From Alteromonas naphthalenivorans (lineage in GTDB: Bacteria; Pseudomonadota; Gammaproteobacteria; Enterobacterales; Alteromonadaceae), in assembly GCF_000213655.1 (NCBI RefSeq), contig NC_015554.1, positions 3,534,001 to 3,598,000 of the forward strand: 64,000 bases of DNA, read 5' to 3'. Shown here in pieces: positions 3,967-11,407 of this stretch. Under the pieces are notes generated by a model, which was not told the DNA's origin, did not search any database, and was given only the letters and a program-made list of their open reading frames with translations. Position 1 is the first letter of the stretch; each line of letters starts with the position of its first letter. The position numbers and the translations under genes were made by a program.

Positions 3967-4074
3967 ACATAACAACTCAATAAACTCACTCACTTTGTTC
4001 GCTGGGACCCATACACGTAGGGCGGCTTCGCCATTATGCCCCACGTGTCTGTGCCCGTTATTGAAAAGTTATAT
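3967..4074 (+). repeat. attC8 recombination site
   Basis: R'' ACATAAC (3967-3973), core GTTATAT (4068-4074), 108 bp. Same arm subtype as attC6 and attC12. Confidence 0.95.
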
Positions 4075-5857: not shown

Positions 5858-5965
5858 ACATAACAACTCAATAAACTCACTCACTTCGTTCGTTGGGACG
5901 CATACACGCAGGGCCGCTTCGCCATTATGCCCTACGTGCCTGCGCCCGTTATTGAAAAGTTATGT
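5858..5965 (+). repeat. attC12 recombination site
   Basis: R'' ACATAAC (5858-5864), core GTTATGT (5959-5965), 108 bp. Same arm subtype as attC6 and attC8. Confidence 0.95.
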
Positions 5966-7356: not shown

Positions 7357-7460
7357 CAAAAAAATTAAGTCACTCACTTCGTTCGCTGGGACGCATACAT
7401 GCGGGGCGGCTTCGCCATTATGCCCCACATGCCTGCGCCCCTTATTTAAAAGCGTTAGCT
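7351..7460 (+). repeat. attC15 recombination site
   Basis: R'' ACCTAAC (7351-7357), core GTTAGCT (7454-7460), 110 bp. The stop codon of the reverse antitoxin gene (7455-7457) is part of the core. Confidence 0.95.
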
Positions 7461-7676
7461 GCCAAAATGTGAATCAAGCTTATCTAGAAGTTCCAAACCT
7501 TTATTTTTGTCTCCAGTAGCAGCAATCGCCTTAAATCTTACCTCAGTATCAAATTCAGCTATCGCTTGCGTAGACAATTCTTCTATCAATTTGTTTAAGC
7601 TCAACTTTTTATGCGCTGCCAAAGCCTTCAATCGATTATGCTTATCGTCTGGTAAACGTACAGTTAAAGTGGACAT
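7455..7676 (-). CDS. Cassette 16: ribbon-helix-helix antitoxin
   Basis: 73 residues with the short N-terminal RHH pattern STLTVRLPDDKHNRLKALA then an amphipathic helix LSLNKLIEELSTQAIAEF, as in CopG/HicB-type DNA-binding antitoxins. The C-terminal part is charged and would wrap the toxin. Its ATG follows the toxin stop by one base (TAA-T-ATG on the minus strand), so the two genes are co-translated with the toxin first. The protein would neutralise the PIN toxin and repress the operon. The stop codon is supplied by the attC15 core. Confidence 0.88.
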   Translation of the reverse strand: MSTLTVRLPDDKHNRLKALAAHKKLSLNKLIEELSTQAIAEFDTEVRFKAIAATGDKNKGLELLDKLDSHFGS

Positions 7677-7677
7677 A

Positions 7678-8100
7678 TTAAACTCCTCTCAAATAATCTT
7701 CAGGCGCTAACACTTTCAAACCATCAAATTGTAATTCCGCATTTCTCAGGTCTTTTAGGTTATTCGTAATAATGCTCTCGGCATTTCCTGCCACTGCAAG
7801 CTCTATAAGAAAGTTATCGCCTTCATCTTTTAAATTTGGCCGCCACAAATAATGTATCTGCACCCATTCGCAAACACTAAAAAATGCTGCTAGCAACTCG
7901 CTCACTTCGTCCTCAGTAAGCGGGCACAATTCTTTAATTTTGTCTCGCTTGCTTACTGCTTCGTACTCCAAGAATAAGGTCGTGCTAATCAGCGGCTTTA
8001 AATCCCCCAACAAGCATTGCCTTATCACTTCTCGGGCTGGCCCTGTTTTGCCAATCAGGGCGCTAATAAGTACACTGGTGTCAATAACTACTTTATTCAT
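7678..8100 (-). CDS. Cassette 16: PIN-domain ribonuclease toxin
   Basis: 140 residues of the PIN_3/COG1569 type ('putative toxin-antitoxin system toxin component, PIN family'). The acidic pattern is visible: VVIDTSVLISAL (Asp 7), FLEYE (about residue 45), a DEGDNFLIELA segment (about 93-103) and an ITNNLKDL stretch. By family it would be a Mg-dependent RNase blocking translation when free. The pair lies opposite to cassette direction with its own promoter at the cassette 3' side, the common arrangement for TA cassettes in large chromosomal integrons, where they are thought to stabilise arrays. Confidence 0.9.
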   Translation of the reverse strand: MNKVVIDTSVLISALIGKTGPAREVIRQCLLGDLKPLISTTLFLEYEAVSKRDKIKELCPLTEDEVSELLAAFFSVCEWVQIHYLWRPNLKDEGDNFLIELAVAGNAESIITNNLKDLRNAELQFDGLKVLAPEDYLRGV

Positions 8101-8148
8101 GGTTTACATGCTAGCGTATATGCTATCATTTTTCAATTTGACAATGGC
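8101..8148 (-). promoter_or_regulatory. Promoter/operator of the toxin-antitoxin cassette
   Basis: Read on the minus strand, TTGTCA and TATACG are 18 bp apart, upstream of the toxin ATG. The + strand has direct repeats ATGCTA at 8108-8113 and 8120-8125, 12 bp apart, overlapping a GCTAGC palindrome: a plausible RHH antitoxin operator over the -10 region. Inference from pattern only. Confidence 0.5.
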
Positions 8149-8155
8149 AGCTAAC
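8149..8155 (+). repeat. attC16 left fragment (R'')
   Basis: AGCTAAC, the R'' half-site closing the toxin-antitoxin cassette. The rest of an attC resumes at 9731, after an IS110-family element. Confidence 0.8.
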
Positions 8156-8160
8156 ACATA

Positions 8161-8169
8161 TGAGCCTCC
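8161..8169 (+). repeat. Element A sub-terminal inverted repeat, left
   Basis: TGAGCCTCC, five bases from the attC junction; complement of 9713-9721. Confidence 0.8.
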
Positions 8170-8602
8170 GGGCTGTCAATGAAAAAAGATAGCCCTTTGA
8201 CCACTATTTCAAGATCAATACCGTTGCCTTTTTAGAACTCGTTTACTTCGTCTGTCATGGCTGATGTTAGGCAAATTGCCTACGTCAAACACATATAGAG
8301 GCTCTTGTTGTTGCGCTTTTCAATTCCTTTTGACTGGCAACGGCACTAGACATTCATCGGTTAACCTTCCTCTGTCCTATTCAAATCTAAGTGGCTGTAT
8401 CGACCAGTTAGTATCAGGTTCAGTGAAGGTGTAAGCAAATTCGTAAAAAGGTAGAGATGCGCAACGGGGACACGTCTAATCAAACCAACAGGTTTTGGCA
8501 TTTCGGTATATTTATCGATGCTGCTTTGGCAGACTATTGCGCGATAAATGAGATACTCACCATTAAACCAGTTAGACTTTTAAGCTCATGCCACCGTGCG
8601 AC
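8170..8602 (-). ncRNA. Candidate bridge/seek RNA region of element A
   Basis: About 430 bp with no gene between the transposase stop and the element end. IS1111-group elements are known to encode their guide RNA on this side. Two segments resemble halves of the attC R'' side read on the minus strand: GCGCTTT (8313-8319) and TGTTAGGC (8265-8272). Both are short and could be chance. A GGGCT...AGCCC hairpin lies at 8170-8194. A forward frame at 8457-8660 has no ribosome-binding site and is not considered a gene. Confidence 0.4.
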
Positions 8603-9652
8603 TTACCCGTTTAAAAAGCGTTCTTCATCGAATACCTGCTGGTTCTTCAACATAAAGTAAGTACATCGCCCGATTTTATGGGCTAGTGCAGATAAAGCCT
8701 TCGCCTTGCTCATTCTCTTTTGCAGCTTGGCTAGATATCGTTTGGCGTTGTCATTACCCTTGAGGTATAACACCGCTGCTTCACTAAATGCCCATTTTAA
8801 ATGTGCATTGCCAATCTTATTCCCCTGCGTACCATGTGTTTTACCGGCCGATTCTGCTTTGCATTTTACTAACCGTGAATACGAAGCAAACTTCTGAACT
8901 GTTGGAAACCGCTCAATATCGCCAACTTCATACAAAATGGTAAGGGCTAGAATTTTCCCGATACCTGGAAACGACTTAAGAATATGTAAATCTGTTGCAC
9001 AGTGTGTTTGTGCCTGAGTCTTTACATAATGTTCAATTTTGTAGAGCTCACTCACCATTGTTTCGATTATATTTAGATTTAAATCCATGCTCTTTTGCAC
9101 AGCTTCGTCTGGAAAAAAGTGACGCATCTTTTCTCTATCAGGTGAGTTTCTTAAATCTAACCGAGTTTCTAGTGCGGGTAAGTTGTATTGACTGACTGTG
9201 CTGGCAACATGCGCTTTCAGTTGAGCACTCATTCTCATTATGTGGGTGCGACGGCGAAGCGCATCTCGAATAGAGCGATGCTCCTTTGAATAAGCATGCG
9301 CGAGTGGGAAGTTCCCACCGCGCATTAGCTTCGCTATTTTTAGTGCGTCAATTTTGTCGTTCTTCGTTTTACCGGCATGAATGGCCTTCATATAAAGCGC
9401 ATGGCCAAGAATGAAATCAATATTATGCTCTTCACAAAAGTCGGATACCCAATACCAGCAGTGCATACATTCAACACCAACAACAATATTGCCCAGATAT
9501 GGCTTTAAAAGCGCTAACAGTTTGTCGGGTGAATCATCGATTTTTTCGTGAACGAGAATGTTGTTTTCATTATCAATAATGCAGACATAAAGCAGTCTGG
9601 TGTGAAGATCGATTCCACAATAGTACGGATGTGTATTAGTATAAAAGTTCAT
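8603..9652 (-). CDS. IS110-family transposase, element A
   Basis: 349 residues. The N-terminal DEDD RuvC-like domain shows CGIDLHTRLLYVC (first Asp about residue 14), a GVEC motif with the Glu, and KNDKIDALKIAKL supplying the last acidic residues. The C-terminal Transposase_20 domain carries LKSFPGIGKILALTIL and a small-residue region with the conserved Ser typical of this family. GGGAG eight bases before the ATG supports the start. It would act with a guide RNA to catalyse excision and insertion through a circular intermediate. No frameshift is seen, so it may be active. Confidence 0.93.
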   Translation of the reverse strand: MNFYTNTHPYYCGIDLHTRLLYVCIIDNENNILVHEKIDDSPDKLLALLKPYLGNIVVGVECMHCWYWVSDFCEEHNIDFILGHALYMKAIHAGKTKNDKIDALKIAKLMRGGNFPLAHAYSKEHRSIRDALRRRTHIMRMSAQLKAHVASTVSQYNLPALETRLDLRNSPDREKMRHFFPDEAVQKSMDLNLNIIETMVSELYKIEHYVKTQAQTHCATDLHILKSFPGIGKILALTILYEVGDIERFPTVQKFASYSRLVKCKAESAGKTHGTQGNKIGNAHLKWAFSEAAVLYLKGNDNAKRYLAKLQKRMSKAKALSALAHKIGRCTYFMLKNQQVFDEERFLNG

Positions 9653-9712
9653 TGAGTTTTCTCCCTTGGTTTGGTCGCCTATTAGGATAAACTCAGTTTA
9701 TGCTGATAGGGA

Positions 9713-9721
9713 GGAGGCTCA
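9713..9721 (+). repeat. Element A sub-terminal inverted repeat, right
   Basis: GGAGGCTCA, complement of 8161-8169, nine bases from the resumed attC sequence. Confidence 0.8.
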
Positions 9722-9730
9722 ATGATTATC

Positions 9731-9827
9731 AAGGCGCTAAACTCGCTCACTGCGTTCGCTGGGACGCCTATACGCGGGGCGGCTTCGCCATTATGCCTCA
9801 CATGCCTGCGCCCCTTATTTAAAAGTT
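9731..9827 (+). repeat. attC16 body between two insertion sequences
   Basis: 97 bp starting AAGGCGCTAAACTCGC, containing the standard central block GGGGCGGCTTCGCC and ending TTTAAAAGTT. With AGCTAAC (8149-8155) in front and ATGT (11408-11411) behind it makes a 108-bp attC, the commonest length in this array. The L'' and L' arms pair less well than in intact sites, so the two halves could come from different sites joined by deletion. Confidence 0.85.
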
Positions 9828-9831
9828 GGTA

Positions 9832-9840
9832 TGACTCCCT
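9832..9840 (+). repeat. Element B sub-terminal inverted repeat, left
   Basis: TGACTCCCT, four bases inside the core junction; complement of 11391-11399. Confidence 0.85.
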
Positions 9841-10143
9841 TTGTCAACCCTGAACGAGTGCTTCCCTGACATTCTTTCAGTCCATAATTAGCTTTATTTT
9901 TCGCTCATAATAAATGAACTAACGCACCGGATGAGGCAGTAATGTCGTCGGTTAGTATGCTGGTATTCGTAGGTTACTCATTCGTTGAATGAGCAGAGCT
10001 GACCTTACATGTTCCGCCGTAGCACCTTCTCATCAGTCTATGCTCGTGGGTCAATCACGGTTAAGTGATTGCCATCATAACTTTTTCGTAGGTTGTGCCA
10101 CATCCCGCGGCCTGATCCGAATGCGTTAGCTCAAACTCGTTTG
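9841..10143 (-). ncRNA. Candidate bridge/seek RNA region of element B
   Basis: About 300 bp without a gene downstream of the transposase, with several stem-loops: CTCATTCG-TTGAATGAG near 10000 and CAATCAC-N6-GTGATTG (10052-10071). Next to the second stem, CATAACTTTT (10076-10085) matches the complement of the attC 3' end AAAAGTTATG across the exact element B insertion point. As RNA from the minus strand it would read AAAAGUUAUG and could pair with one target strand. This is what the guide of an RNA-programmed IS1111-group element should look like, but it is inference. Confidence 0.55.
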
Positions 10144-11298
10144 TCATGCAGGTACTCTACTTAACCGTAATTTTGGATTAACCGGTGTGAGTACCACTTC
10201 CTTTGCAATAGCCCAGATGTATGCCGCCATTTCCCTGGCTATCGCGGTAATGATCAAGTTGTAGTGCTTACCTTTTTTACTCATGCGCTGATAGCGTTTG
10301 CACAGACGCAGCTGGGCTTTCCAGGCGATATCAACAATGTCTTTGGGTAAGCCTTCTTGCCTTAACTGTAATTCGGTAGAGACATTTGCTGGATACCGAT
10401 AGCTATGCGCACCTTCAATCAGTAAACGCCTTGCTCTGCCGTTGCCGGCTTTGGTAATGGCTCCTAAGTGTCGCTTTCCACCTGATGATTGTTCACTGGG
10501 AACTAAGCCCAGATAAGCCATGAGCTTTCTTGGGTGGTCGAAGCGATGTAGATCACCGAGTTCCGCCACAACACCAACGGCGACTAATAATCGAACACCG
10601 CGCATCGCTTGAATGGCTTTCACTACTGGATAATAACGCCATTGGTGAACGTGGTGAGTTAATTCATTATCTAGCCTTTCCAGTCGACGGATACGCTCTT
10701 CTATGGTTTGCAATTGTTCCTGCAAAACTATTTGCTGCGCCGGATGAGGCAATATCAATTCTGTAAGCCAGCGAAGGTGCTTCTTCGACCAGTTAGCAGT
10801 GCCTTCATAGCGTATGTTGTTGCGAAGCAGTAACGCTTTAAGCTGGTACTTGGCTTCTTTTAAATCTTTCATTGCCGCTTCACGAGCACGGGATAAATCC
10901 CGAACGGCTTCGTCCTCAGGCTCGGGCACATATATGGGCGTGAGATCTTCAGACTTTAGTGACCTAACGAGTTTAAGCGCATCTCGGCGGTCAGTCTTAA
11001 TTCGTTCTCCAGGCTTTTTGGGAATAAGAGACGGAGCCACGACATAGCAACAATGCCCTAAACTTGTTATCAGCCGATAAATCCAGTAGCCACAAGGCCC
11101 AGCTTCATATACGACGTGAAGTGTTGCACCAGGATATTTAGATTCAAACTGCCGGAGCAGCTTTTTTACACTAGCTTTTGATGAAGGTATCCGTCCGTAG
11201 TGAACAGGGCTGGCACCACGTTGCTCCTCACAATAAGCTACTTCATGGAACTCTTTATGCGTATCCAACCCGATAAAAATCATGCTATGTTTGTTCAT
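10144..11298 (-). CDS. IS110-family transposase, element B
   Basis: 384 residues from the ATG at 11298, which has GGAGG five bases upstream; an upstream TTG at 11310 is less likely. The N-terminal DEDD domain shows FIGLDTHKEFHEV, VYEAGPCGYW and KTDRRDALKLVRSL. The C-terminal Transposase_20 domain shows AMRGVRLLVAVGVVAELGD and the LGLVPSEQSSGGKRHLGAITKAGN signature with its conserved Ser. Length and motifs are standard for IS110/IS1111 and the frame is intact. It shares little beyond family motifs with the element A enzyme. Confidence 0.95.
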   Translation of the reverse strand: MNKHSMIFIGLDTHKEFHEVAYCEEQRGASPVHYGRIPSSKASVKKLLRQFESKYPGATLHVVYEAGPCGYWIYRLITSLGHCCYVVAPSLIPKKPGERIKTDRRDALKLVRSLKSEDLTPIYVPEPEDEAVRDLSRAREAAMKDLKEAKYQLKALLLRNNIRYEGTANWSKKHLRWLTELILPHPAQQIVLQEQLQTIEERIRRLERLDNELTHHVHQWRYYPVVKAIQAMRGVRLLVAVGVVAELGDLHRFDHPRKLMAYLGLVPSEQSSGGKRHLGAITKAGNGRARRLLIEGAHSYRYPANVSTELQLRQEGLPKDIVDIAWKAQLRLCKRYQRMSKKGKHYNLIITAIAREMAAYIWAIAKEVVLTPVNPKLRLSRVPA

Positions 11299-11390
11299 GC
11301 TAGCCTCCAAATTGATTTAGTATTGAACAAACTAATTATGGCTCTGGCTGAAAAGTTAACCCACGAAAATGCGGGGGCTAGCACTTTTAC

Positions 11391-11399
11391 AGGGAGTCA
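11391..11399 (+). repeat. Element B sub-terminal inverted repeat, right
   Basis: AGGGAGTCA, complement of 9832-9840, eight bases before the restored core bases ATGT. Confidence 0.85.
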
Positions 11400-11407
11400 T
11401 TGTGTCT

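Follow-up and report, generated by a model that had tools for sequence, protein, structure and literature searches.

Can ten nucleotides in the non-coding end of an insertion sequence tell that element where to insert? The question is raised by a 64,000-nt stretch of the Alteromonas naphthalenivorans chromosome (NC_015554.1, positions 3,534,001 to 3,598,000; hereafter the window), the start of which lies inside an integron cassette array whose attC sites belong to a single family. One of these sites is interrupted by an insertion sequence, element B, that carries downstream of its transposase gene a 10-nt string complementary to the sequence spanning its own insertion point. We put the probability that element B is an RNA-guided insertion sequence directed to the 3′ ends of attC sites in integrons at about 0.88, and comparison of related sequences indicates that the 10-mer is very probably a working guide of this element. 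The kind of system is already known, from the RNA-guided attC targeting of ISKpn4 and ISPst6; natural variation of the guide is the interesting part.

The string CATAACTTTT is present exactly at 10076-10085 on the plus strand, reads AAAAGTTATG on the transposase-sense strand and matches the sequence spanning the insertion point, as a sequence-only reading of the locus had reported. The stem-loop described beside it is real (it spans 10052-10073) and shows compensatory changes in relatives, and the same string ends other, intact attC sites of the window, exactly at 2884-2893 and 5955-5964 and as AAAAGTTATA at 4064-4073. When the 303-nt region was shuffled 20,000 times by dinucleotides, 19 of the results contained the 10-mer (on either strand) and 87 contained any of the 18 junction-spanning 10-mers, but the string with at most one mismatch was not enriched across the window (8 found against 9.6 expected), a count that favours chance. 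By itself the match is suggestive, and it is the comparative data that carry the case.

The ends of element B were fixed by means of uninterrupted cassette boundaries in other genomes and an identical 1,580-bp copy in the same genome. For that second copy (L082), the same cassette was found uninterrupted, as GTGTGTAT/AAC, in L250 and L252, the two readable loci of four matching loci in other genomes. Cassettes homologous to the one beside the window copy (73-75% identical) are found in L246 and L248, where they start GTTATGTA right after AAAA; what lies upstream of the cassette at these loci is unlike the window attCs, so that they confirm the cassette side of the junction and nothing more, and the AAAAGTT side was taken from the interrupted attC itself. 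We take the shared sequence before the cassette in L246 and L248 to be possibly an attI site. On the evidence of the uninterrupted boundaries the element reads AGACACA...ATACC and sits directly after the GTT of attC without target duplication. Elsewhere on the chromosome there is also a copy of 84% identity (L083) and a left-end fragment (L084) of which the left 308 bases match.

Relatives of element B were collected from a first scan of genome contigs (best 80 of 195), from 395 genomes of the family, 53 of them with a match to the guide pattern, and from 59 genomes of the genus, 20 of them with a match. The figure of 53 is an upper one, since some pattern matches arose by chance: CGATATTGTT, CGATTTAGTT, CGATAGCGTT, CGACCTTGTT and CGATGTGGTT (L105, L106, L117, L118 and L120), considered as guide alleles, were dropped as chance hits with surroundings devoid of element ends and RNA, and are among those matches. 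Deduplication by flank and guide left 139 distinct insertions, of which 129 had a right flank of at least 7 nt and 126 were usable; outside the 126 are the ten with a shorter flank, L060 (an N in the target) and L111 and L195 (flank not AAC). To pass the filter, an element had to have the core GTTA[T/G]G, a motif resembling guide 2 and a right end that could be recognised, which excludes elements with another core and accounts for the absence of L115 (TGCC guide, shortened non-coding region). L006 contributes two rows, possibly with a common left flank through mis-assignment, and L174 carries the same insertion as L016 (Alteromonas lipotrueiana). At the window copy and at L082 the complete attC could be examined; for all other relatives, including L083, the site was read from the flank alone.

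In 127 of the 129 insertions the right flank started with AAC, complementary to the GTT of attC, which gives the fixed orientation at one attC end by which the IS1111-attC group is judged. The four guide bases before the invariant GUU were GGGC in 61 insertions, CGGC in 54, GGGT in six, AAAA in three, and GGAA and GGTC in one each (n=126), the GGGC-type counterpart of the wild-type string AAAAGTTATG being GGGCGTTATG. If the string is a guide, it should change with the target in homologous elements, and this check showed that guide and target covary over the 126 insertions. The mean match, 3.21 of four bases, was above both the shuffled mean of 2.85 and the highest value among 20,000 shuffles, 3.04 (these shuffles and the p-values over the 126 insertions ignore relatedness), and every one of the four positions exceeded its own shuffles. 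All four bases matched in 50 insertions and three in 56. The three AAAA guides all lay at TTTT, a target used by none of the other 123. A fourth guide base A went with target T in 4/4 insertions compared with 3/122 for the others (Fisher 3.5e-6), and between GGGC and CGGC guides at GCC targets continuing C or G the first base corresponded to the target (odds ratio 13.5, p 2.4e-4). The 11 uncommon guides matched fully in six cases and at two bases or fewer in five; set against a hypothetical GGGC guide, their own guide fitted better in eight, equally in two and worse in one.

Close relatives with different guides gave the same picture. L016 (AAAA at TTTT) and L010 (GGAA at TTCC) are 92% identical (0.918) in the transposase region and differ in both guide and site, and this genome holds two identical AAAA-guide copies at AAAAGTT attCs together with the 84% identical GGGC-guide copy L083 at GGGGCGTT. 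On a transposase tree of 123 rows at least 17 guide changes were counted. Among independent pairs the target followed the guide in 4.1, opposed it in 0 and was unchanged in 0.9 at base 4 (n=5), with corresponding values of 0.9, 0 and 2.1 at base 3 (n=3) and 1.8, 0 and 0.2 at base 2 (n=2); at base 1 they were 3.7, 0.5 and 2.8 for G versus the rest with target C (n=7) and 1.1, 0.3 and 3.6 for C versus the rest with target G (n=5). The direction of these tree-aware comparisons agrees with guidance; alone it is not significant.

The supply of attC ends was used as a negative control. An attC-pattern scan of 20 genomes included six GGGC-guide genomes listed in full, in which 48 of the 85 attCs found ended in AAAA. 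The pattern covers one attC subclass and gave no GGGC end among the 85, so the availability figure is approximate and shows that AAAA sites were available rather than how frequent GGGC sites are. Among insertions from all genomes, GGGC guides with a GTTATG core lay at TTTT in 0/30. The commonness of AAAA ends in other genomes of the genus, which makes this control possible, also made it less likely that the AAAA guide is an adaptation to an unusual local set of attCs. A model based on the window attCs found 63 sites in this genome, including single hits outside the attC-rich regions; AAAAGTT is the end of 18, among them the two sites that AAAA-guide copies occupy, and GGGCGTT of three, while three further sites mis-split by the script belong to TAAA or TAGC. 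The site of L083 is not among the 63 and was judged by the flank alone. The covariation supports the suggestion that the string is programmed to attC ends; the string fits only part of the attCs, AAAA ends making up 18 of 63, and several relatives mismatch their own site. The attC-rich regions of the chromosome are three and separate, at 1.424-1.449 Mb, at 1.937-1.970 Mb and in the window.

The strip in which the 10-mer lies belongs to a conserved RNA structure. From 55 distinct sequences, eight with an altered closing stem or an insert were removed and the window was added, giving 48 aligned sequences for which RNAalifold returned a closing stem (GUGGCAC/GUGYYAC), an inner hairpin and a short GUU helix. 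In this fold 97.9% of cells were paired and 92 cells held compensatory changes, compared with 21.9 in shuffled alignments and at most 22 in slid versions, and guide 1, the 10-mer, is placed between the closing stem and the hairpin. The relatives L025, L034, L086, L087, L101, L136, L148, L149 and L177 have the closing stem replaced or extended by another hairpin-like insert. The 10-mer is well supported as the top-strand guide, and would be one of two. The candidate second guide lies 3′ of the hairpin and varies little, and CAUAGAC within it equals the left flank CAT plus the left end AGAC of the element. A CT end of its flank part goes with a CT-ending left flank in 6/11 cases, compared with 19/102 otherwise (p 0.014). 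The coordinates of these and the other features are collected in the table.

Table. Features of element B, the attC that it interrupts and the adjoining element A (window positions; a slash within a sequence marks the insertion point)
Feature	Position	Strand	Remarks
Guide 1 (top-strand guide, very probable), AAAAGUUAUG	10076..10085	-	Pairs with target CAT/AACTTTT; first four bases covary with target, 126 insertions
Candidate guide 2 (bottom-strand guide), GCAUAGAC	10036..10043	-	GCATAGAC at 10043-10036; position and order as in published seekRNAs
Predicted seekRNA core, approximate	10012..10108	-	Ends inferred; closing stem and hairpin with compensatory changes; size like published 82-96 nt
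Hairpin between the two guides	10052..10073	-	Two-sided compensatory changes in 6/7 consensus pairs
Closing stem, 5′ arm GUGGCAC	10095..10101	-	Pairs with 10019-10025; two-sided changes in 4/7 pairs
Closing stem, 3′ arm GUGCUAC	10019..10025	-	Partner of 10095-10101; two-sided changes in 4/7 pairs
Downstream non-coding region with predicted guide RNA	9828..10143	-	316 nt; conserved structured RNA, 48 aligned sequences
Element B, complete insertion sequence	9828..11407	-	1,580 bp; IS1111-type anatomy
DEDD transposase gene, 384 amino acids	10144..11298	-	PF01548 E 1.5e-15; PF02371 E 5.4e-19
Left subterminal inverted repeat, ATGACTCCCT	11391..11400	-	Beyond repeat: 7-bp left extension AGACACA, 11401-11407
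Right subterminal inverted repeat, AGGGAGTCAT	9831..9840	-	Beyond repeat: 3-bp right extension ACC, 9828-9830
Candidate -35 box TTGACA, promoter formed only by abutting ends	9842..9847	-	17 nt to CACAAT (11404-11399) in joined ends
attC interrupted by element B	9731..9827	+	3′ end AAAAGTT at 9821-9827; aligned with 11 other window attCs
Element A, second, distantly related IS110-superfamily element	8156-9730	-	Transposase 8603-9652

Several observations speak against guidance or limit its reach. Two bases matched in 17 of the 126 insertions and one in three; among these, GGGT guides match at two bases or fewer at TTCC (L013, L024), ATGT (L018) and ACTA (L020), as does the GGTC guide of L096 at GCCT, a site that GGGC would fit better, and a single base matches in L034 (GGGC at TTTC) and L155 (CGGC at ACTT). 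Outside the 126, L115 (TGCC at GCCT) matches at two of four, and L195, with a GGGT guide, has the right flank AGCATCC instead of AAC. The last-but-one base of guide 1 (GUUAGG or GUUAUG) does not track the flank. An AAAA guide occurs in just one further genome (G377), where the single pattern-found attC ends in GGAA, and in the tree-aware tests, with few independent pairs, no base reaches p 0.05 (median). The single-sequence fold is of only modest stability (z -1.65), no Rfam family matched at E≤1, and the comparisons of left flanks point weakly to candidate guide 2 as the bottom-strand guide. Because donor flanks must match the guide for movement, as published for related elements, the mismatched copies may be immobile, or their guides may have changed after insertion.

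The alternative that survives best, though we consider it unlikely, is that the transposase or the folded attC hairpin makes the choice of site, with the guide-like string playing no part in targeting and surviving as a relic or passenger. It would account for the near-universal AAC flank, which is found regardless of the four guide bases, and for the minority of guides that fail to match their own site; it does not sit well with the covariation of guide bases outside the invariant GUU, with the different guides and sites of the close transposase relatives L016 and L010, or with ISEc11, which was reported to form no circles once its non-coding region was deleted (PMC11187229). Still less probable is that the covariation stems from common ancestry and local attC make-up, elements and attC types travelling together with no guidance, a view helped by the neglect of relatedness in the shuffles and by a tree offering only five independent base-4 pairs (p 0.06-0.5), and opposed by the absence of GGGC-guide elements (0/30, from all genomes) from AAAA attCs, ends that are common in six genomes with such guides, within the approximate availability given above, and by the presence in this genome of both guide types in different attC types. 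Coincidence, for which the unenriched one-mismatch string is the one argument, is contradicted by the rarity of the 10-mer in shuffles, its fixed position in a conserved RNA fold and the covariation, and is very improbable.

If element B is RNA-guided, its movement can be pictured as follows. The element would be excised as a circle whose joined ends make up a promoter, TTGACA-17 nt-CACAAT, from which transcription would pass through the transposase gene into the downstream non-coding region; an RNA of about 90 nt from that region would bind the transposase, AAAAGUUAUG would span the insertion point in its pairing with one target strand, GCAUAGAC would pair with the other strand on the left side, and the circle would be inserted after GTT with no duplication. 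The anatomy, the junction, the conserved RNA fold and the covariation of guide and target are seen in the sequences; transcription, transposase binding, circle formation and a choice of site driven by pairing are steps that we infer from what has been published for related elements. In 123 of the 124 relatives whose two ends could be read, joining these ends puts TTGACA or TTGACG at 17 nt from a following CAYAAT or near variant, by a pattern devised ad hoc for the present analysis; one of these relatives has TTAACG. A promoter at the circle junction has been published for related elements.

The founding papers of the IS1111-attC group are reportedly those of Tetu and Holmes in 2008 and Post and Hall in 2009. 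Both transposase domains of element B exceed their curated cut-offs, a domain-level test of membership in the IS110/IS1111 superfamily, and the motif GLVPSEQSSG at residue 264 fits the C-terminal-domain motif GL-P----S(T)G of IS1111. The subterminal repeats, perfect over 10 bp and 12 bp long if one mismatch is allowed, compare with a usual 11-13 bp, the 7-bp and 3-bp extensions are both present, and so is the long downstream non-coding region, where the list of open reading frames has none of at least 100 amino acids from the transposase stop to the end of the element. Four named transposases were compared, of which only IS4321 is documented as IS1111 in the literature consulted. The nearest was that of ISEc45, annotated as IS110-like on an E. 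coli plasmid and compared by transposase only (42.6% identity over 359 residues), whereas IS4321, IS5708 and ISShdy1 gave 25-28%; the local alignment to IS4321 reached 24.8% over 307 columns (E 3.8e-18), and the length of 384 amino acids differs from the 330-350 reported for IS1111. A protein database search listed 120 close relatives, which were not used further. Element B appears to work like an IS1111-attC element; by the descent of its transposase it is a possible member of the IS1111 family.

Published accounts describe close parallels. IS1111 elements have subterminal repeats with 7-bp and 3-bp extensions and make no target duplication, and Siddiquee et al. (2024) demonstrated seekRNAs for the attC-targeting ISKpn4 and ISPst6, whose transposases co-purify with RNAs, and predicted one for ISPa25 (PMC11187229). 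These three share with element B the downstream non-coding region, and in their seekRNAs the top-strand match is 5′ of the bottom-strand match (PMC11187229), the order in which guide 1 and candidate guide 2 lie; compared by published description, they differ in that the guide alleles of the element B clade vary with attC type. The same source reports that ISEc11 depends on its non-coding region both to form circles and to transpose, that movement requires a match of the guide to donor flanks and target alike, and that natural re-direction has occurred between ISEc11 and ISXne4 (PMC11187229). ISEc11 and ISXne4 resemble the present case as close relatives with different target-matching RNA segments, but they are one pair with targets sharing 3/13 bp, in contrast to the many small changes within attC in the element B clade (PMC11187229). 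The IS621 bridge RNA system likewise has a DEDD recombinase and RNA loops that pair with both target strands (PMC11208160), and the transposase of element B is similar to the solved IS621 transposase (E 6.7e-05); the IS110 group, IS621 included, differs in RNAs that lie mostly upstream and repeats of 2-3 bp, against a predicted downstream RNA and a 10-bp repeat in element B (PMC11208160). Guide-target covariation was analysed for IS110 by Durrant et al. (2024); for 93.0% of IS1111 elements they also predicted a bridge RNA, which apparently lies in the right end (PMC11208160). In searches of an open-licence library we found no description of guide alleles that follow attC subclasses.

Mosaic elements suggest how such alleles might arise. 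Among selected rows, L016 has its closest transposase in L010 and its closest non-coding region 3′ of the guide in L001 (0.939), while L010 is missing from the top five for that region; similarly, L096 shares 97.1% of its transposase with L008, which has a different guide from it, and its non-coding region is closest to that of L030 (0.924), the top five again lacking the transposase relative, L008. L136 carries a chimeric guide RNA with an Alteromonas-type 5′ half and a 3′ half as in L086. Together these sequences are suggestive of exchange of the guide module by recombination; the AAAA guides of L016 and of this genome could reflect either a separate origin or exchange. Tentatively, and at somewhat short of even odds, we propose that natural guide alleles divide among themselves the attC subclasses of marine gammaproteobacterial integrons and are swapped between transposase backbones through recombination in the non-coding region. 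Module exchange, if real, would explain how a target can change although donor flanks and target must both match the guide. The clade offers matched, mismatched and mosaic copies for the study of natural retargeting, and extends a laboratory finding, that of programmable seekRNAs and bridge RNAs, to natural populations, with matching guide and target alleles in one genus and even on one chromosome. Such insertions may also disrupt attC sites and immobilise cassettes, an effect suggested for ISPa21 (PMC11616780).

The attC interrupted by element B is flanked at its opposite end (TAAC/AAG) by element A, the transposase of which is 23% identical to that of element B over 244 residues. A guide was looked for in element A, and only 6-nt matches were found. 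The cassette at 7442-8155 carries a PIN-domain gene on the minus strand (7678-8100), possibly part of a toxin-antitoxin pair. Among 32 loci of element A relatives, the window included, the left end was readable in ten, all preceded by TT, and the right end in nine, followed by GTTA in eight and by ATTA in one (L207); if the proposed division of attC subclasses among guide alleles holds, integron arrays would with such a second element be attacked from both ends of attC.
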